Origin: Flavobacterium sp. TAB 87
Lineage (GTDB): Bacteria; Bacteroidota; Bacteroidia; Flavobacteriales; Flavobacteriaceae
Assembly: GCF_001529295.1 (NCBI RefSeq)
Contig: NZ_LLWK01000038.1
Location: 682,001-746,000, forward strand
Length of the DNA: 64,000 nucleotides
Direction: 5' to 3'
In this document: piece after piece, positions 32,425 through 40,841 of the stretch
Position numbering within the stretch: the stretch's first letter is position 1
How the letters are laid out: each line of letters begins with the position of its first letter
Notes under the pieces: model-generated
Database searches by the model: none
What the model saw: only the letters and a program-made list of their open reading frames with translations
What the model was told of the DNA's origin: nothing
Translations under genes and position numbers: made by a program

Positions 32425-33744
32425 ATGAAATATATAAACAAAACCAATCTTTTGCTGTTGTCGCTTTTTATTTTGCAAATCACTGTAGCACAAGAGTTAC
32501 CAGAGCGCAAAATGACGATTCAGCAACTGGCCGATAGTTTGGTGGCTCAAAATATTCAAATCAAATTAGCTGATGTTTCGGTGAAGCTCGCAGATGCTAG
32601 AATTGGAGATGTAAAAATGAACCGGCTGCCGGACATTGGTGCTGATATGAATACTATGTATTTGAGTGATGTTACTATATATGATAAACATTGGTCTCAA
32701 TTTCAAAAAGTAGATCTCCCGAATTTCGGGCATCAATTTACACTTTCCGCAAAGCAACTTATTTATGCCGGCGGCAGAATTACCAAAGGTATTGAACTTG
32801 CCGAATTGAGTAAAAACTTAGCCGAAAATCAGTTTACTGACTTAGGTTTGGGCGTAAAGTTAAATGCGGCCGAGTTGTATTTAAACCTTTATAACTTACA
32901 AAATCAAAAAGAAATCTTATTGAACAATGAAATCTTGGCTAATGAACGATTGAAAAATGTTAAATTGTTCTTCGATCAAAATATGGTTACAAAAAATGAA
33001 GTGCTTCGAGCCGAGGTTTTAAGAAGACAGCTGGAACAGAATATTTTACAGATTCAAAATTCAATTGAAATCACAAATAAAAACTTGTTGCTGTATGCCG
33101 GCTTAAGAGAAGAGGTGCTCATTGTTCCAGACGTTAGTAATATTAATCATCAAATACGGGAGCAAGACGAAGCGTATTTTTTGGAGCTGGCGTATAAAAA
33201 CAATCCGCAATTAAGTATAAGTGACATTCAGATTGCAATGAGCAAGAAGAATTTAGAACTTACAAAAGCTGAAAATATGCCTACTCTAGCTGCCTTTTCT
33301 GGATATAATGCCTCTCGACCAATGACGAGCTCGGTGCCTGCTTTAGATTTTTATTCTACTACTTATCAAGTTGGACTTAATTTGTCTTACAATTTTGAAA
33401 CACTCTACAAAAATGGTAAAAAAGTACTTGTAGACAAAGTTTTAATTGAACAAGCAGAATTGGCAAAAATTGCCGTCATGCAACAAATTGAAACGCAGGT
33501 AAATGCGGCTTATAAAAATTACCGCCAAGCGGTTATGCAAACAGAAGTTAGTGCAATTAACGAAAAAGCAGCTGACGAAAATTATCGAATTACAGAGTTA
33601 AAATATAAAAATCAATTGGTCACCATTACAGAAATTATCGACGCATCGAATACGAAGCTTCAGGCAGAATTGCAAACTTTAGACGATCGCACGGCAATAA
33701 TCTTAAATTATATCAAACTTTTACGCGTTACAGGACAGTTATAA
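32425..33744 (+). CDS. TolC family outer membrane efflux protein
   Basis: A 439-residue outer membrane channel with a signal peptide (about 1-22, ending TVAQE) and two repeats of long amphipathic helices typical of TolC/OprM proteins. Recognisable elements are LSAKQLIYAGGRITKGIEL (about 107-125), NAAELYLNLYNLQNQKEIL and a second-half YNFETLYKNGKK, then a long coiled helix ending ILNYIKLLRVTGQL. It is the first gene of a three-gene efflux operon, 27 bases before the membrane-fusion gene. Confidence 0.93.
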   Translation: MKYINKTNLLLLSLFILQITVAQELPERKMTIQQLADSLVAQNIQIKLADVSVKLADARIGDVKMNRLPDIGADMNTMYLSDVTIYDKHWSQFQKVDLPNFGHQFTLSAKQLIYAGGRITKGIELAELSKNLAENQFTDLGLGVKLNAAELYLNLYNLQNQKEILLNNEILANERLKNVKLFFDQNMVTKNEVLRAEVLRRQLEQNILQIQNSIEITNKNLLLYAGLREEVLIVPDVSNINHQIREQDEAYFLELAYKNNPQLSISDIQIAMSKKNLELTKAENMPTLAAFSGYNASRPMTSSVPALDFYSTTYQVGLNLSYNFETLYKNGKKVLVDKVLIEQAELAKIAVMQQIETQVNAAYKNYRQAVMQTEVSAINEKAADENYRITELKYKNQLVTITEIIDASNTKLQAELQTLDDRTAIILNYIKLLRVTGQL

Positions 33745-33771
33745 ATCATTCCCATTTTAAAAAAATAAACT

Positions 33772-34833
33772 ATGGCAACTACAGATAAAAAAATCAAGTC
33801 TAAAAATAAACTGTACCTAACGCTTTTAAATTCGTTTGTGTTTATTGTGACGCTATTGGCTATCTGGTTTATCTTCAAAAATTATTTTCATTTTAATGAC
33901 GACACGTATGTAAACGACGCACAAGTAAAAGCATACATCAGTCCTATAAATTCTCGTGTGCCAGGTTATATCAAGCAAATTCGTTTTCAAGAACATCAAG
34001 AAGTTAAAAAAGGTGACACACTCGTCATTTTGGATGATACCGATTTTAGAAATGTAATTGCACAAGCGCAGGCTGGTTTAAATCAAGCGGTAGCCAATAA
34101 GGCATCTGCTAAGTCTTCGGTTGCCCGAGTGAGTACTGGCGAGAATACTGTAGTTGCAAATATTTATGGTGCAAAAGCACAATTGGATAATGCTCGAGCA
34201 GATTTAGCTCGTTATAAAAATTTATTAGATAATGATGCCGTAACGCTACAACAATACCAGCAAATAGAAACTACCGTAAAAACGTTGCAATCGCAATACA
34301 ATGCCATTAAAACCCAAAAAAACACAGCTGTTTTATCTACAAATGAAACCCAGTCGAAAATTGCAATTAGCGACGCACAAATTGATGCTGCTAAAGCAAC
34401 GTTGAGTCGAGCAGAGTTGAATTTAAAGTATGCTGTAATCACTGCTCCAGAAGACGGTATTGTGGGAAGAAGAACCATTACAACGGATCAGTTTATTCAG
34501 CCAGGACAACAAATTGCAACTTTGGTTCAGAAAAATTCAAAATGGATTGAAGCCAATCTTTTAGAAACTCAGATGCCTCTAGTGAAAGAAGGTGATATTA
34601 TTATGTTTACGATTGACGCGATCGGGAAAACAAAATTTGAGGGGAAAGTAACTTCAATTTCAGCAGCTACTGGATCACAATATTCGGCCATTCCTACAGA
34701 TAATTCAGCCGGCAATTTTGTAAAAGTACAACAGCGTATTCCAATAAAAATTGAATTCACCTCAAATAATGATCAAAAATTAATTGATAATGTAAAAGCA
34801 GGAATGAATGTGGTGATGACTCTAAAAAAGTAA
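33772..34833 (+). CDS. HlyD/EmrA family membrane fusion protein
   Basis: A 353-residue periplasmic adaptor with one N-terminal membrane anchor (about 16-38). The biotinyl-lipoyl half-motif INSRVPGYIKQIRFQEHQEV (about 60-79), a long coiled-coil hairpin (about 95-215) and the second half-motif NLKYAVITAPEDGIVG (about 217-232) follow in order. The EmrA-like NDDTYVNDAQVKAYISP segment is present. It links the MFS pump in the inner membrane to the TolC-like channel; both are encoded on either side, the MFS gene only three bases away. Confidence 0.94.
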   Translation: MATTDKKIKSKNKLYLTLLNSFVFIVTLLAIWFIFKNYFHFNDDTYVNDAQVKAYISPINSRVPGYIKQIRFQEHQEVKKGDTLVILDDTDFRNVIAQAQAGLNQAVANKASAKSSVARVSTGENTVVANIYGAKAQLDNARADLARYKNLLDNDAVTLQQYQQIETTVKTLQSQYNAIKTQKNTAVLSTNETQSKIAISDAQIDAAKATLSRAELNLKYAVITAPEDGIVGRRTITTDQFIQPGQQIATLVQKNSKWIEANLLETQMPLVKEGDIIMFTIDAIGKTKFEGKVTSISAATGSQYSAIPTDNSAGNFVKVQQRIPIKIEFTSNNDQKLIDNVKAGMNVVMTLKK

Positions 34834-34836
34834 AGC

Positions 34837-36474
34837 ATGTACAACAAAGGTCTATTTGCAAATTGGGTTCCCAAACCAGTACAATTGCTATTGATTGTCT
34901 TTTTTTTATTGCCAATTTTAGTTATTAGTGGAGTGTATACTGGGAATTTAAGTTATATGTCTGGCGATTTAGGAACGAACAATGAGTGGTTGGTTTTTGC
35001 TAATTACGCGGGAATCGTTGGTATGGGAGTGAGTATGCCTGTAATTTTCCGCTTTAAAATGGCTTTTCATACCAAGTATTTAATGCTGCGTACGTTCTTA
35101 ATTCTAGCGTTATTGTCCTTTGCTATCGGAACTACCGATAGTAATTTTGTAATTGTAGCGTGCTCCTTTTTCATCGGGTTTTTTAAAATGTTTGCCATGA
35201 TGGAGGTTGTTTTGCCGACGATGTTTATAATTAGTCCAACTGGCAATCGACCAAAATTTTATTCCATTTTTTATCCGCTAGCGATCATTATTCCGCAGGT
35301 GGCTGGATATCTTTTAACAAAAGTAGGGTTTTTTACTTTTTGGCAAAATGCTAGTTTTATAATGGCTATGATCATGTTAGTTTGTGCATTATTGGCAACC
35401 ATTTTTATGCACAACCAACGCTACGATCGAAAAGTACCATTATATTACATCGATTGGATGGGAATGTTCGTTTACGCGACGGTATTTCTGGCAATGGCTT
35501 ATTTTATAGCGTTTGCCAAACAGCAAAATTATTTTAGATCCGATGCAATTGTGACGGCTACTTTTATCGTAATTATTGGAATTATCATTTTTCAAATGCG
35601 CCAAAAACTTATTAAAAGACCTTTTGTAGATTTTAGAGCCTTGAATAAATATAACGTTATTCATGGCGTTATGATGCTTTTTATGTTGGGTTTTTTGTTA
35701 GCAGGAAGTTCGCTGCAAAGCAGAATAACTAGGGGAGTTTTAGGATTTAGCACCATTACAGACAACTCCTATAACCTCTGGATGATTCCCGGTATTCTAG
35801 TTGCGAGTGCTTTTAGTTTAAAATGGTTAACCAAGGAAAAGTCTATAAAAACATACATTATTATCGGATTTACGGCCTTTATGTTCTATTATGTATTTAT
35901 GTATTTTTTGATCTCACCGAATGTGAGCTACAATCAATTAATTTTTCCAAATGTCATTCGTGGTTTTGCTATGACCATTTTATTTATAGGCATTTGGTTG
36001 TATGCACTGAGTAATTTATCAGTAGATGCGATGTTGGGAGTGGCTGCGATTTTAATTATAACTAGAACAATGCTCGGACCAGGTGTGTGGAGTGTTCTTT
36101 TAAATTATATCGATGGATTTTACCAAGTAGAGTCACTAAATAACATTGCAGGAAAGATGGATGCTTCGGCTTATTCAAAAAGTACGGCCATGCAATTGTA
36201 TCGAAATGTCAAAATAAATACCTTGATTAATGCAACCCAAAGACTGTATGGTTTTATGATTTTAATGGCGAGCGTTATTTTAGTTTACATTACTTTTTTA
36301 AATTTTGAAGGTTTGGGAAAACGAAAACTAATTTCATTTCGAAAGCGATTCAGACGAAAAAATAAACAAAGTGGTGAAGAGGATGACTTTCAATTAGAGG
36401 AAGAAGTAGGAGTTAATGCTGAAATAGAAGTACAGAAAACCGAGACGGAAAGTATCAGTGGAGCAGCGATTTAA
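34837..36474 (+). CDS. MFS efflux transporter (EmrB-like)
   Basis: A 545-residue inner membrane protein with about 12-14 predicted helices. It lies directly after an EmrA-type adaptor and so is the likely pump of a tripartite drug or toxic-compound exporter. Classic MFS cytoplasmic motifs are weak here, and the sequence resembles the divergent Bacteroidota MFS group found beside HlyD genes. The last 60 residues form a charged cytoplasmic tail, basic (KRKLISFRKRFRRKNK) then strongly acidic (EEDDFQLEEEVG). Substrates cannot be inferred. Confidence 0.85.
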   Translation: MYNKGLFANWVPKPVQLLLIVFFLLPILVISGVYTGNLSYMSGDLGTNNEWLVFANYAGIVGMGVSMPVIFRFKMAFHTKYLMLRTFLILALLSFAIGTTDSNFVIVACSFFIGFFKMFAMMEVVLPTMFIISPTGNRPKFYSIFYPLAIIIPQVAGYLLTKVGFFTFWQNASFIMAMIMLVCALLATIFMHNQRYDRKVPLYYIDWMGMFVYATVFLAMAYFIAFAKQQNYFRSDAIVTATFIVIIGIIIFQMRQKLIKRPFVDFRALNKYNVIHGVMMLFMLGFLLAGSSLQSRITRGVLGFSTITDNSYNLWMIPGILVASAFSLKWLTKEKSIKTYIIIGFTAFMFYYVFMYFLISPNVSYNQLIFPNVIRGFAMTILFIGIWLYALSNLSVDAMLGVAAILIITRTMLGPGVWSVLLNYIDGFYQVESLNNIAGKMDASAYSKSTAMQLYRNVKINTLINATQRLYGFMILMASVILVYITFLNFEGLGKRKLISFRKRFRRKNKQSGEEDDFQLEEEVGVNAEIEVQKTETESISGAAI

Positions 36475-36610
36475 ATTTGTTAGGAATATATAAGAAGATT
36501 TGGACTTGTAGAGAATGTATTCACAACGTTTTTCGGAAGATGTACATTTAAAACTATTTTACATCAGATAACAAATGTCATAATTTTTTTCGAAAATAGT
36601 AATGGACTAA

Positions 36611-36643
36611 TTTGTCCGCTACTATAATTATTACTTACCTTTG
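36611..36643 (+). promoter_or_regulatory. Candidate promoter of the Rrf2/oxidase locus
   Basis: TTTG (36611-36614) and TACCTTTG (36636-36643) are 21 bases apart, within the 17-23 base range reported for flavobacterial promoters. The start codon of the Rrf2 gene is 20 bases further on. Confidence 0.55.
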
Positions 36644-36662: not shown

Positions 36663-37097
36663 ATGTTTTCAAAAGCCTGCGAATACGGAATTAGAGCCTC
36701 TATTTACATTGCAGAACAAACGTTGTTAAGTCGCAAAGTAAGTTTAAAAGAAGTTGCGGCTGCCATAGAATCTCCAGTAGCTTACACTTCAAAAATACTG
36801 CAGTTACTGGTGCGAAACAATACTATTAATTCAGATAAAGGTCCCAAAGGTGGATTTTATATGGATCAGGAGGAGCTGCCTAAACTAAAGTTGAGCGACA
36901 TAGTTTCGACTATTGATGGCAATACTATCTACGTGGGATGTGGCTTGGGTTTAAGTAGATGTAATGAAAATAAACCGTGCTCTTTGCACAGTCAATTTAA
37001 AGTGATAAGAGACGAACTAAGACACATGCTTGAAAAAACTACTATAAAATCATTAGCCGAAGATCTAGATAAAGGATTGGCTTTTTTAAAACATTAA
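36663..37097 (+). CDS. Rrf2 family regulator with three-Cys cluster motif
   Basis: A 144-residue winged-helix regulator of the Rrf2 family (IscR, NsrR, RsrR). The N-terminal FSKACEYGIRASIYIAE and the GPKGGFYM wing are typical. Three cysteines, C93-x6-C100-x5-C106, match the region that holds an Fe-S cluster in IscR and NsrR, though the spacing is not exactly either. Such proteins sense iron-sulfur status, NO or redox state. It lies 49 bases upstream of the oxidase genes on the same strand and probably controls them and itself. Confidence 0.9.
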   Translation: MFSKACEYGIRASIYIAEQTLLSRKVSLKEVAAAIESPVAYTSKILQLLVRNNTINSDKGPKGGFYMDQEELPKLKLSDIVSTIDGNTIYVGCGLGLSRCNENKPCSLHSQFKVIRDELRHMLEKTTIKSLAEDLDKGLAFLKH

Positions 37098-37146
37098 CAA
37101 TAATTTTCTTAAATTGTAGATTGTAATATCCAACATAAATAAAAAG

Positions 37147-38910
37147 ATGGAAACCAAAAACATATTTAGCGAGTCCGGAATCATTATTACCATAATTCTT
37201 ATTTCAATTCCCTTAATAATTGCTTCAATTATTTTAATCATAAAAGCTTATGCCATACTTGATAAATATCTTAAAAAGAAAAAATTAGAAAAATTTAATG
37301 AATACCTCAAAGGGTTAGATCCTGAAGAAGTAAAAAAATTAGAGATTCGAAAGCGAGAATTGGAATTTGCACTTACCAACGCTGAATTAGGTGGAGTTTC
37401 GCCTGCAGTTGACAATAAGGGATTAATCAACAATGTTAATGAAGTTGAAGGTTTTCGTTTCATCGAACAAAAAAGAAAAAGTCAGCCACGCCCCTACATC
37501 GGTACAGAATTGACAAACTTAATTTTATGGTATTTAGGATGTGCTACTTTTTGGTTACTATTTGGAACAACAATCGGGGAATATTTGGGCATAAAATTCG
37601 TAGCTCCCGATGTTGATCATTACAGCTGGCTTAGTTTTGGTCGCCTAAGACCCGTTCACACCAATGCCGTTTTTTGGGGTTGGGCATCTTTAGCAATGAT
37701 TGGATTAGGGTATTATGTGGTGCCGAGAGTTAGCAATACGCCAATCAATAGCGTGAAAACAGGATATTATTCGCTTATTCTTATCAACGCTTCCGTTATT
37801 ATTGGGACTATTTGTTTGATGGCCGGTATCAATAATGGTGGTGGTGAATACAGAGAATATATTTGGCCGGTAATGGCATTGTTTGGTGTTGGAGTTTTCA
37901 TAACATTACTCAATTATGTAAAAACAGTTGCTAAAAAAACGACTAAAGAAATTTATGTTTCCAACTGGTATATTGTTGCCGCAATGATGTATGTATTGGT
38001 TATTGCAATTGTGGCGTATTGGCCAAGTTGGCAAAATGGACTCGGTGAAACTATCGTACAAGGATATTACATGCATCAAGGTGTAGGAATGTGGTTTATG
38101 CTTTTTACACTGGGTTTAATGTATTATTTTTTACCACAACAATTAAACAAACCCATTTATTCTTACAGCTTAGGTATTTTGGCTTTTTGGACTCAAATTT
38201 TATTTTATACATTAATTGGTACACACCACTTTATCTTTAGTGCGATACCATGGTGGTTGCAAACCGTTGCCATTGTTGGTAGTGTTGGTATGGTTATACC
38301 TGTAGTTGCGGGTACCACCAACTTTTTAATGACTTTTAAGGGTTCTTGGCATAAATTGGCAAGTAGTTATACACTCCCTTTTTATTTAATCGGAATCATA
38401 TTTTACTTTACAGGTTCATTGCAAGGAACAGCAGAAGCTTTTCGATTTACGAATTTAGTTTGGCACTTCACTGATTTTACAGTGGCACACTCGCACTTAA
38501 CGATGTACGGGATTATTTGTTTTATGCTTTGGGGTTTCATCTATACACTTGTACCAAGATTAACAGGAAAAGAGCCTTCGCAAGTACTTGTTGGTGCACA
38601 CTTTTGGTTGGCGTTAATCGGCTTGTTGTTTTATACATTTCCATTAATGTACGGTTCAACACTTCGTGGATTAATGTGGATCGAAGGAAAACCGTTTATT
38701 GACAGTGTCGAATTAATGGCGCCGTATTGGCTGTGGCGAGCAATTGGTGGATCGTTAATGTGGTTGTCTCACATTTTATTTGCTTATAATTTTTATGTGA
38801 TGATTAAAGGGAATACTGATGCTCCAATACCCACATCGGCAATCGACATATTGAGAGCTAAACAAGAATTGGATAAGCAAGAACTGGATAATCAAGGTCT
38901 AACTAATTAA
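37147..38910 (+). CDS. ccoN: Atypical cbb3-type (C-family) heme-copper oxidase catalytic subunit
   Basis: A 587-residue CcoN-like subunit. Residues 1-115 are an unusual extension: one membrane helix (about 12-36), then a charged segment. The oxidase core follows with about 12 helices. Heme ligands are H171 (RPVHTNAVFWGW), H448 and H450 (TVAHSHLTMYG); copper ligands are H310 (YYMHQGVG), H360 and H361 (GTHHFIF). Y354 lies 44 residues after H310 and six before H360, the spacing I recall for the cross-linked catalytic tyrosine of V. cholerae CcoN (H211, Y255, H261), so this is an oxygen-reductase-type centre and not a NO reductase. Typical Bacteroidota cbb3 enzymes have CcoN fused to CcoO; here they are separate genes 10 bases apart. 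Confidence 0.85.
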   Translation: METKNIFSESGIIITIILISIPLIIASIILIIKAYAILDKYLKKKKLEKFNEYLKGLDPEEVKKLEIRKRELEFALTNAELGGVSPAVDNKGLINNVNEVEGFRFIEQKRKSQPRPYIGTELTNLILWYLGCATFWLLFGTTIGEYLGIKFVAPDVDHYSWLSFGRLRPVHTNAVFWGWASLAMIGLGYYVVPRVSNTPINSVKTGYYSLILINASVIIGTICLMAGINNGGGEYREYIWPVMALFGVGVFITLLNYVKTVAKKTTKEIYVSNWYIVAAMMYVLVIAIVAYWPSWQNGLGETIVQGYYMHQGVGMWFMLFTLGLMYYFLPQQLNKPIYSYSLGILAFWTQILFYTLIGTHHFIFSAIPWWLQTVAIVGSVGMVIPVVAGTTNFLMTFKGSWHKLASSYTLPFYLIGIIFYFTGSLQGTAEAFRFTNLVWHFTDFTVAHSHLTMYGIICFMLWGFIYTLVPRLTGKEPSQVLVGAHFWLALIGLLFYTFPLMYGSTLRGLMWIEGKPFIDSVELMAPYWLWRAIGGSLMWLSHILFAYNFYVMIKGNTDAPIPTSAIDILRAKQELDKQELDNQGLTN

Positions 38911-38920
38911 CATATACGAA

Positions 38921-39913
38921 ATGGATTTTTTCGACAATCATAAAAAACTATTCTTAACCGCCTTGGGGTTATTTGTCATTTTAACTCTTGCAGTGGCTAT
39001 TTTTCCTGCGATAAGCAACCAAATAAATAATGCGACTTTACCCAATTACGAACCTTTAAGTGTAGACGCACAGCAAGGAAAACTAATTTACATTAGTAAC
39101 GGATGTGTGGCATGCCATACCCAACAAGTTCGAAATGTAGATATGGATAAAGTTTGGGGGAAAAGACCAGGAATTGCTGCTGATTATGCAGCAAATACCA
39201 GAACCGATTTTTGGAGAAATACTGCTACTCTGATGGGGACGGAACGAACAGGGCCCGATTTAACAAATATTGGTACGCGCCAACCGAGCATGGCTTGGAA
39301 TTTATTGCATTTATACCAACCAAGAGCTGTGGTAGAAAAATCGATTATGCCAGCATATCCTTGGCTTTTTGAAGTTAAAAATGAAGTTGGAAAAGATGAG
39401 ATTGAGGTTATTGTTCCTGATGAATTTAGAGTAGGAATTACAGGTAAAATTGTTGCATCTAAAGAAGCGGTTCAGTTAGTAAACTATTTGCAAAGTTTAA
39501 AGCAAACAGAATTGCCAGACGGTAAAGTGCCTATGGAGTTTTTATATAAGAAGAAAGAAGTTCCGGTGGCAGCAGCGGGAGCAGCAGCAAATCTACCAGA
39601 CGGCGGAGCGCTTTATACACAAAATTGTGTTGCCTGTCATCAAGCGAATGGAGAAGGATTGAAAGGTGCATTCCCGCCACTAAAAGGAAGTCCTGTAGTT
39701 TTAGGTGAAGATCTCGAACTGTACGTAAATATTATTATGCAAGGCTACGATGCTCGACCAGAGTATGCAGCAATGAATGCGGTCGGAAAAGACAATAATC
39801 TGACACCCGAAGAAGTAACTGCGATTATAAATCACGAAAAAACCAGTTGGGGTAATGCTGCAAAACCAGTTACTGCGGAAGAAGTTAAAAAATTAATGGA
39901 TTTAATTAAATAA
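38921..39913 (+). CDS. CcoO-like cytochrome c fused to a second cytochrome c domain
   Basis: A 330-residue membrane-anchored cytochrome. One N-terminal helix (about 10-30) is followed by a CcoO-type domain with the heme site GCVACHTQQVR (61-71) and the axial Met in SIMPAYPW (M143). A linker rich in Ala and Lys leads to a class I cytochrome c domain with a second CVACH site (236-240) and a likely axial Met at 275. This merges a CcoO-like and a single-heme CcoP-like domain, so the complex would carry two c-type hemes in one subunit, not the usual three over two subunits. It should pass electrons to the catalytic subunit encoded just before it. Confidence 0.88.
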   Translation: MDFFDNHKKLFLTALGLFVILTLAVAIFPAISNQINNATLPNYEPLSVDAQQGKLIYISNGCVACHTQQVRNVDMDKVWGKRPGIAADYAANTRTDFWRNTATLMGTERTGPDLTNIGTRQPSMAWNLLHLYQPRAVVEKSIMPAYPWLFEVKNEVGKDEIEVIVPDEFRVGITGKIVASKEAVQLVNYLQSLKQTELPDGKVPMEFLYKKKEVPVAAAGAAANLPDGGALYTQNCVACHQANGEGLKGAFPPLKGSPVVLGEDLELYVNIIMQGYDARPEYAAMNAVGKDNNLTPEEVTAIINHEKTSWGNAAKPVTAEEVKKLMDLIK

Positions 39914-39927
39914 TAGCGAAATATATT

Positions 39928-40173
39928 ATGATGGCAAATACAGAAATATGGTTAGAAAGTTTAATAACTAAGACACCACAAGAAGGAAGAGCTTTGGCTA
40001 TATTAATGGCACGAAAAACAATTGGCGCCATTCAATCAGATCCAGAGAAACGCAAACAGCTTCGACCTGAGTACGCTGAAGATACCGTTCAATTAATTAG
40101 TTCTGCGCAAGTTGTAGCAATTGAATTTCAAACTATTGCAAAAGCAAATAAGTACTGGAGAGATGAAAAATGA
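39928..40173 (+). CDS. Small hypothetical protein in the oxidase operon
   Basis: An 81-residue soluble, helical, charged protein with no signal peptide, membrane segment or cysteine. I do not recognise a family. It starts 14 bases after the cytochrome gene, and its end overlaps the next small gene by 11 bases, so it is clearly part of the operon. A role in assembly or as a cytoplasmic accessory factor is possible but is only inferred from position. Confidence 0.7.
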   Translation: MMANTEIWLESLITKTPQEGRALAILMARKTIGAIQSDPEKRKQLRPEYAEDTVQLISSAQVVAIEFQTIAKANKYWRDEK

Positions 40174-40432
40174 TATTAAATATCTCTTGACCCTAGCAGC
40201 ATTTTTTTGTATAAATGCCGTTGTGTGGGCTTGTCCTACCTGCGAAAAACAACAACCTAAAATTACACAAGGAATAACCCACGGCGGTGGTCCTGCAAGC
40301 AATTGGGATTGGGTGATTATTGCAGTAATTACATTAATCACAATCTTGACCTTAATTTTTTCATTGAAATTTTTAATAAAACCAGGTGAAAAAAATACCG
40401 ATCATATTAAACAATCCATTTTAAACAATTAA
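40163..40432 (+). CDS. Small exported membrane protein with CPTC motif
   Basis: An 89-residue protein. A signal peptide (about 1-23, ending VVWA) is followed at once by CPTC, then a His/Gly-rich patch (THGGGP) and one membrane helix (about 49-72) with a Lys-rich tail. The CPTC pair next to the membrane suggests metal binding or thiol chemistry, for example in copper delivery, but no family is recognised. I chose the ATG at 40163, overlapping the previous gene by 11 bases. An earlier in-frame start (40121) adds 14 residues that spoil the signal peptide. It is four bases from the next gene. Confidence 0.7.
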   Translation: MKNDIKYLLTLAAFFCINAVVWACPTCEKQQPKITQGITHGGGPASNWDWVIIAVITLITILTLIFSLKFLIKPGEKNTDHIKQSILNN

Positions 40433-40436
40433 AACA

Positions 40437-40841
40437 ATGCACGAAGATAAAAGTAAAGTATCGCTATTTATCGATGATGATTTGCAGCCTATCGCTGAAT
40501 TGTTAGCGCCTGTTCAATTTGAATTGGATACTCGAAAACTGACCGATGGCGAGCATACCTTAAAATTGGTTAGTAAATCATCAACGGGAAGAGAAGGTAT
40601 TCGTAAAATAAAATTTATAGTCCGTAACGGACCTGCAATTGCTATCGAAGGAATATCAGAAAACGAGGTCGTTGATGGCTCAGTGCCGCTCATGATCAAT
40701 GCATACGATAAAGGAAATCAAGAGAAGTTTATCATTGAAGGAAGTGAAACTCCACAAACGGTTCCGACTTGGCTTTGGATTCTTTTGATCGCTTTTGTGG
40801 GTTGGGCAGCCTTTTATCTGGTTACTAATATTAGTTTGTAA
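40437..40841 (+). CDS. C-terminally anchored Ig-like protein in the oxidase operon
   Basis: A 134-residue protein with a soluble N-terminal part and a single C-terminal helix (about 110-130, WLWILLIAFVGWAAFYLV). The soluble part shows two Ig-like strand patterns, LDTRKLTDGEHTLKLVSK (30-47) and GSVPLMINAYDKG (81-93). No signal peptide precedes it, so it would be tail-anchored, or inserted with the N-terminus outside. No heme, copper or catalytic motif is visible. As the last gene of the operon, four bases after the CPTC protein gene, it may be a structural or assembly subunit of the oxidase. Confidence 0.7.
   Translation: MHEDKSKVSLFIDDDLQPIAELLAPVQFELDTRKLTDGEHTLKLVSKSSTGREGIRKIKFIVRNGPAIAIEGISENEVVDGSVPLMINAYDKGNQEKFIIEGSETPQTVPTWLWILLIAFVGWAAFYLVTNISL

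Follow-up and report, generated by a model that had tools for sequence, protein, structure and literature searches.

An operon for a distinct, putative C-family heme-copper oxidase in Flavobacterium sp. TAB 87 and its possible link to nitric oxide

The analysis concerned a stretch of 64,000 nucleotides from Flavobacterium sp. TAB 87 (contig NZ_LLWK01000038.1, positions 682,001 to 746,000 of the forward strand; hereafter the window) and, within it, an operon for a putative terminal oxidase whose core subunit we call N. A preliminary description, made from the sequence of the window, had read the locus as an atypical cbb3-type oxidase under an Rrf2 regulator, with separate CcoN-like and CcoO-like genes, the latter with an added cytochrome c domain, followed by three small genes. 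Its coordinates, gene order and spacings were all reproduced from open reading frame (ORF) coordinates (10 bases between N and O, 14 between O and HTHP and 4 between S and X, with an 11-base overlap of HTHP and S), and Pfam matches confirmed the regulator and the two larger subunits. In window coordinates, the locus consists of the following features.

36596..36625, no strand assigned: candidate palindromic operator, ATAGTAATGGACTAATTTGTCCGCTACTAT, upstream of the Rrf2 gene, from a palindrome scan
36663..37097, plus strand: Rrf2-family regulator, 144 amino acids, CX6CX5C motif (PF02082, E 2.1e-21)
37147..38910, plus strand: N, C-family heme-copper core subunit, 587 amino acids (COX1, PF00115, E 1.2e-83)
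38921..39913, plus strand: O, CcoO-like, 330 amino acids, extra C-terminal cytochrome c domain (FixO, E 1.3e-26; Cytochrom_C, E 1.3e-14)
39928..40173, plus strand: HTHP, an optional cassette (PF11534, E 4.9e-32)
40163..40432, plus strand: S, 89 amino acids, one transmembrane segment (TM), without a known family
40437..40841, plus strand: X, CcoP-like, 134 amino acids, an Ig-like beta-sandwich followed by a TM (Big_7, E 6e-4; FixP_N, E 0.18; both below the cut-off)

Four COX1 proteins are encoded in the genome, namely N, an A-family protein, a fused CcoNO and a quinol-type nitric oxide reductase (qNOR; this and the A-family protein were named by eye). A canonical cluster, ccoS-ccoNO-ccoQ-ccoP-ccoG-ccoH-senC-like-ccoI (gene names by position and eye), was found on another contig when the genome was checked for one as the preliminary description had proposed, and the N locus therefore represents a second C-family enzyme. 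BLAST alignment of these Cco proteins to all window ORFs of at least 40 amino acids matched only N and O, the latter through its cytochrome c. The window thus holds no canonical-type ccoQ, ccoP, ccoS, ccoG, ccoH or ccoI, in keeping with the earlier remark that the usual ccoP/ccoS/ccoG-type genes are missing from the locus.

A phylum-wide sample yielded matches to N in 20 of 395 genomes (E 1e-68, the window's own genome included). Besides the latter, 12 matched at 56–70% identity and seven at 33–36%, and the seven were excluded from the N family. Within the genus, N was present in 3 of 24 relatives at 61–64% identity, as against up to 83–84% elsewhere among the matches listed; because of this difference the operon has probably been transferred laterally. 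A tblastn scan of contigs detected at least 417 stretches encoding a relative of N, and the best 80 of these, which were kept, come from many families, so the label 'lineage-specific' in the preliminary description had to be given up. The set analysed below comprised the window and 95 further loci (15 from the phylum and genus samples, 80 from the contig scan), two of which (L059 and L121) are identical in sequence; 86 loci were left after dereplication at 95% identity. Since resemblance to the window decided which 80 scanned loci were kept, all counts lean towards its nearer kin. One locus, on a contig labelled Verrucomicrobia (L111), has an N copy placed deep among Bacteroidota copies, through either transfer or a mis-binned contig. 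A literature search, with most subscription papers outside its reach, returned no paper naming the operon in its title or the start of its abstract.

The tree of the core domain that the preliminary description had called for contained 65 rows, including 31 N proteins, 19 canonical CcoN/CcoNO and 6 NORs. The N rows formed one clade (support 100/100) inside the C family and outside canonical CcoN/CcoNO, which formed a clade of their own (100/100), while the NOR rows were separated from the C family at 100/100. A sister relationship of N to other separate-CcoN proteins received weak support (82/37), and the tree program flagged long branches. The best NCBIfam model for N was ccoN, at 245 bits and under its 583-bit cut-off, and the closest solved relatives by sequence were also CcoN. 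The predicted model of N (pLDDT 82.9) had 3mk7 as its nearest fold (TMt 0.88, compared to 0.83 for the NOR 4xyd); residues 1–119 or so make up an N-terminal TM and a charged helical extension.

Sites in N are numbered after P. stutzeri CcoN. PMC3578206 gives the numbers of His207, His257, His258 and Trp203, and presents the last as a conserved residue through which electrons reach the CuB centre. The three CuB histidines, the heme b and b3 histidines and the cross-link tyrosine (helix VII, before the HH pair) were kept in all 96 N proteins. A simple NOR reading, in which comparison of HFIF with HLHY behind the HH pair made the tyrosine seem absent, was dropped, as CcoN alignments show this residue, Y251, before the HH pair. 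At the site of the FeB-ligand glutamate of NORs (helix VI), glycine was found in 96/96 N proteins, whereas all six NOR rows had the glutamate and no tyrosine. Equally constant were W203G, G206M and E323Q (N residues G306, M309 and Q426; 96/96), and W204 was replaced by tyrosine in 95 of 96. Nine other C-family rows have W, G/A and E/Q at sites 203, 206 and 323, with the exception of the long-branched P. fungorum 2 row (G, I, Q), the only one outside N to show W203G; G206M occurred in none of 15 reference rows. As glutamine is shared by seven of the nine, E323Q is not diagnostic of N.

Judged by ligands, tyrosine, tree and fold, N appears to be a C-family heme-copper oxygen reductase, for which O2 reduction and proton pumping would be expected. 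It lies outside canonical cbb3 (CcoNOQP), as seen from its tree position, Gln323 and the heme-free X, and the operon can be regarded as a distinct variant within the known heme-copper C family.

Conservation of the operon extended well beyond the core. Under a strict spacing rule, O, S and X followed N in 82 of the 86 relatives' loci having at least 2.3 kb of downstream sequence; three of the exceptions (L095, L149 and L153) have all three genes under a looser rule, and the fourth (L068) is without X. The N-O-S-X order is therefore conserved beyond chance as a stable operon, in which HTHP is optional. Two CXXCH motifs were present in the window's O and in all 92 O proteins of relatives, and together with the canonical ccoNO elsewhere and the core outside ordinary CcoN this supports the earlier proposal of a second, distinct C-family enzyme with two c hemes.

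The same proposal had counted three new accessory subunits, which may hold for S, without a known family, and does not hold for HTHP or, by its likely origin, for X. The HTHP gene product scored 110.5 bits against PF11534 (gathering cut-off 25) and belongs to a known family of tyrosine-coordinated heme proteins; it was detected in 10 of the 95 other loci, between O and S in seven and after X in three. HTHP can reduce peroxide at electrodes (PMC4813847). S, queried from position 40166, gave no Pfam or NCBIfam match; an alignment of 20 S proteins revealed a signal-peptide-like N-terminus, an ACPxCE...THGxGP motif, one TM and a PGExxxxHIKxxIL tail. X looks CcoP-derived. The window's X has no CXXCH and carries a CcoP-like TM, SETPQTVPTWLW; among relatives, 79 of 86 X proteins were short and heme-free and 7 were long with one CXXCH. 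Profile comparison by hhalign aligned X with CcoP at E 4.9e-12 (long-X profile, E 3.2e-11), the long forms' cytochrome c contributing most of the score and the likeness of short X being confined to the TM. The model of X (pLDDT 80.6) shows a beta-sandwich and a helix at 111–132, with weak beta-sandwich matches in the PDB (best 5icu, CopC, E 0.024), and a search of X against a plasmid collection returned no match. In long X the c heme follows the TM and must face the periplasm, which would put the Ig-like domain on the cytoplasmic side; homology suggests the same for short X. A CxxC motif was found in 84 of 91 relatives' S proteins and was absent from exactly the seven loci whose X bears heme. 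Six of these seven were in the tree, where they branch first within the N clade as two groups, so the pattern may reflect one or two events. Ordinary CcoN with CcoQ, CcoP and CcoS homologues, which the preliminary description had set against its own view, thus finds no counterpart in the core and a partial one in X.

An Rrf2 gene was present in 74 of 95 loci, and a three-cysteine motif of Fe-S type in all 74 proteins scored (73 CX6CX5C, one CX5CX6C). The window's Rrf2 has this cluster motif, as NsrR would, and scores 26.1 bits against the NCBIfam NsrR equivalog, whose cut-off is 182. Of 95 upstream regions, the window's included, 67 contained a palindrome of more than 12 bits with the consensus ATAAAaGAcAaattTgTCtTTTAT, as opposed to a mean of 0.1 in the controls, which were simple shuffles. 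Across the 96 loci, 111 sites exceeded 13 bits, of which 63 lay before Rrf2, 27 before N and one was the window's; the others were situated before RIC (2), hemerythrin (3, in 2 loci), other genes (8, including one DUF2249 gene and a diheme peroxidase gene) or no gene (7). In the window's own genome, the operator pattern had 15 matches with up to three mismatches compared to 14 for the reversed pattern.

The hint at NO in the preliminary description was borne out by the neighbourhoods of N in relatives. Truncated haemoglobin was encoded in 56, RIC in 38 and hemerythrin in 34 of the 95 loci, and at least one of the three in 64 (58 of 86 after dereplication), compared to 1 of 13 canonical ccoNO loci, all from N-positive genomes (Fisher p = 5e-5), and none of eight arbitrary stretches. 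Within the same 13 genomes the difference persisted (8/13 versus 1/13, p = 0.011), the canonical stretches being the longer ones except in the case of the window. Pfam confirmed one representative of each neighbour family, and an NnrS-like profile was left out of the counts because it was also positive in 11 of the 13 canonical loci. Several other genes recur around N. A 146-amino-acid membrane protein without a Pfam match is conserved near N-O-S-X (L119:11839-12279 and 13 further loci). At L059:9431-10155 the gene for truncated haemoglobin is followed by one for a small 2Fe-2S protein (Fer2), which might be an electron donor and whose cluster occurs in 28 loci. Membrane proteins of 421 amino acids occur in L066 (11038-12303), L067 and L070 in clusters with DUF2249/DUF1858-like genes, that of L066 matching only part of COX1 (PF00115, E 3e-14). 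In the window itself, genes resembling a TolC-HlyD-MFS export set (by eye) lie 5' of the locus at 32425-36474.

Genome content was compared between 16 N-positive and 54 N-negative genomes, the latter (G040–G098 less G052 and G060, which had 33% matches, and G059, G063 and G095, of the same genus) being unmatched by phylogeny. Fused CcoNO was kept in 13 of the 16 carriers. Both nosZ (10/16 versus 17/54, p = 0.04) and c/qNOR (5/16 versus 5/54, p = 0.04, at E 1e-12 with a qNOR query, which is weaker for cNOR) were commoner in N-positive genomes; nirK over the cut-off was present in 5/16 versus 11/54 (p = 0.5) and nirS in 0/16 versus 3/54. Complementarity of N with NOR was not observed, and these contents give no sign of N standing in for an absent NOR. 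One genome with nirK and nosZ and no c/qNOR (G312), considered as a case for N being a NOR, was discarded, as it holds a further heme-copper protein with glutamine at the tyrosine site, eNOR-like by eye (L262:4522-6249, about 5 kb from nirK). The sole remaining genome of this kind (G402) has an extra heme-copper oxidase that keeps the tyrosine (by eye), and is thus a single possible case.

Compared with the cbb3 enzymes CcoNOQP (3mk7, 9g6b, 8smr), the N operon shares the C-family core fold, the three CuB histidines, the heme b and b3 histidines, the His-Tyr site, a CcoO-type c-heme subunit and a CcoP-like TM. It differs in the ~ 30% identity of N, its separate clade and its three substitutions, in having two c hemes on O, an Ig-like and mostly heme-free X and S for CcoQ, and in Rrf2 control with no ccoGHIS in the operon. 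C-family enzymes generally use c-heme subunits (CcoO, CcoP) instead of CuA, a feature matched here by O, the CcoP-related X being heme-free. With cNOR and qNOR the shared traits are the superfamily, the fold and the NO-gene neighbourhood, and a Thermus locus read as nor (annotated as cbb3-type subunit I) is flanked by Rrf2 and DUF542 genes too; N is set apart by its tyrosine, the missing FeB glutamate, CcoO-type electron input and the fully supported tree split. For the NOR families, PMC12569097 cites Murali et al. as the source. An unfused core is common to N and to other separate-CcoN groups (L071-L074 and L077; L078, on a Paraburkholderia fungorum plasmid), of which L071, L072, L077 and L078 have glutamine at the E323 site like N and, unlike N, keep Trp203. 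O and cytochrome c are separate genes in all these groups, unlike in the N operon, and a P-type ATPase gene lies near them. No match to S, X or Rrf2 was obtained in L071-L074 and L077, where ORFs were chosen by length and genes may be missed or mis-started, and none of the three is annotated in L078. Following Muntyan et al. 2015, PMC5492636 speaks of an 'unknown group' within the heme-copper oxidases, and it treats the active-centre glutamate as mandatory for authentic C-type enzymes; since N has glutamine there, it may, like that group, fall outside this definition. The cbb3 of Nitrospina gracilis has glycine at site 203 as in N, along with a CcoNOP fusion, His202 and Tyr208, as opposed to Gln at 202 and Met at 206 in N (PMC3578206).

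The explanation we favour, with a probability somewhat above even, is that the N operon encodes a C-family terminal oxidase under nitrosative-stress control, used for respiring with NO present. What speaks most strongly for an oxygen reductase is the retained tyrosine, and for NO the NO-gene neighbourhood. The neighbours would also suit a respiratory NO reductase of C-family origin that kept its tyrosine and makes N2O, in denitrification or NO detoxification, which we consider possible and rather unlikely. The excess of nosZ in carriers, the 11 of 16 carriers in which the qNOR query detected no c/qNOR and the side NO reductase activity of cbb3 enzymes (PMC8780969) speak for such a reductase, against which stand the tyrosine kept and FeB glutamate absent throughout N, the reverse of the NOR rows, and a published table in which oxygen reductases have Y and the NORs shown have E, N or Q (PMC8756737, Table A4). 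Enrichment rather than depletion of c/qNOR in carriers and the counts of nirK and nirS also weigh against it. Truncated haemoglobins are usually O2-using NO dioxygenases, so the setting of the N loci looks oxic, which fits a NOR poorly. Similarly low is the chance that N marks a widespread, overlooked C-family branch with physiological NO consumption, either as a tyrosine-keeping NO reductase or as a combined O2/NO reductase, in which case many 'NOR-less' Bacteroidota would have a respiratory NOR. A dual O2/NO role of N is conceivable because cbb3 enzymes can reduce NO, as reported for that of P. stutzeri (PMC8780969), and because SAR11 strains lacking NOR have been suggested to possess a bifunctional cbb3 (PMC12816887).

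Every signature of O2 reduction tested is kept, and a specialised second copy is plausible where 13 of 16 carriers retain fused CcoNO, which would suit an ordinary high-affinity micro-oxic backup oxidase adjoined by NO genes only through Rrf2/Fe-S grouping of stress genes. Two loci from the window's genus (L036 and L037) have the operon after a sulfide:quinone reductase-like gene and before cydAB-like genes (by eye), the latter also in line with such an oxidase. The strong association with truncated haemoglobin, RIC and hemerythrin, which canonical ccoNO loci show hardly at all, and the changed 203 and 206 sites in every N protein make this a doubtful account. A divergent canonical cbb3, with the small genes simply ccoQ, ccoP and ccoS, draws on the alignment of X with CcoP and is very improbable, given the tree position of N, the Ig-like domain that replaces the first CcoP TM in X with a c heme in 7 of 86, the lack of a Pfam match for S and the absence of window counterparts to the organism's own CcoQ, P, S, G, H and I other than the cytochrome c match to O; a canonical enzyme with hidden ccoQ/P/S was rejected on the evidence of tree, residues and subunits.

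Several observations weigh against the favoured nitrosative-stress oxidase. According to PMC8780969, heme-copper oxidases are inhibited in vitro by NO as well as by nitrite, it is debated which of the two counts in vivo, and nitrite rather than NO is taken to be the one that affects them there. The regulator is far under the NsrR cut-off and could instead sense iron-sulphur status, O2 or peroxide; the operator is unique in its own genome, where the N locus alone matched with no mismatches; E323Q is common outside N; and the operator matrix and family profiles were trained on the same loci as were counted. Genes for truncated haemoglobin, RIC and hemerythrin were not found in the 64-kb window, and all three are missing from 16 of 61 dereplicated loci with full flanks and from 5 of the 13 N loci in the matched comparison, including that of the window. 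Owing to these absences and to the unique operator, the NO link rests on the relatives.

For a nitrosative-stress oxidase of this kind we infer O2 reduction, NO-responsive control and NO tolerance. Electrons would pass from cytochrome c to the two c hemes of O, on to the heme b and heme b3-CuB core of N, and finally to O2. S and X would stand in for CcoQ and CcoP, X on account of its profile (mainly that of the long forms) and S of its position and topology. The local Rrf2 repressor, with its Fe-S-type three-cysteine motif, would sense NO or NO damage and free the palindromic operator. In many relatives, where the genes are co-located, the enzyme is proposed to be made together with truncated haemoglobin, RIC and hemerythrin, and HTHP, where present, may remove peroxide. 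The altered pocket beside CuB (W203G, G206M, E323Q) could allow respiration to withstand NO or nitrite or, alternatively, let the enzyme turn over NO slowly during O2 reduction.

With a remodelled CuB pocket, a dedicated Fe-S-type regulator and recurrent NO-defence neighbours, the operon offers a case in which the adaptation of an oxidase to reactive nitrogen can be tested. Its three constant substitutions are natural variants for asking how protons and electrons are transferred in C-family enzymes, and X provides a CcoP-like subunit that is mostly without heme. Since many Bacteroidota have N, which matches models as a relative of COX1/ccoN, surveys of respiration and of where N2O is formed and consumed could assign it wrongly.

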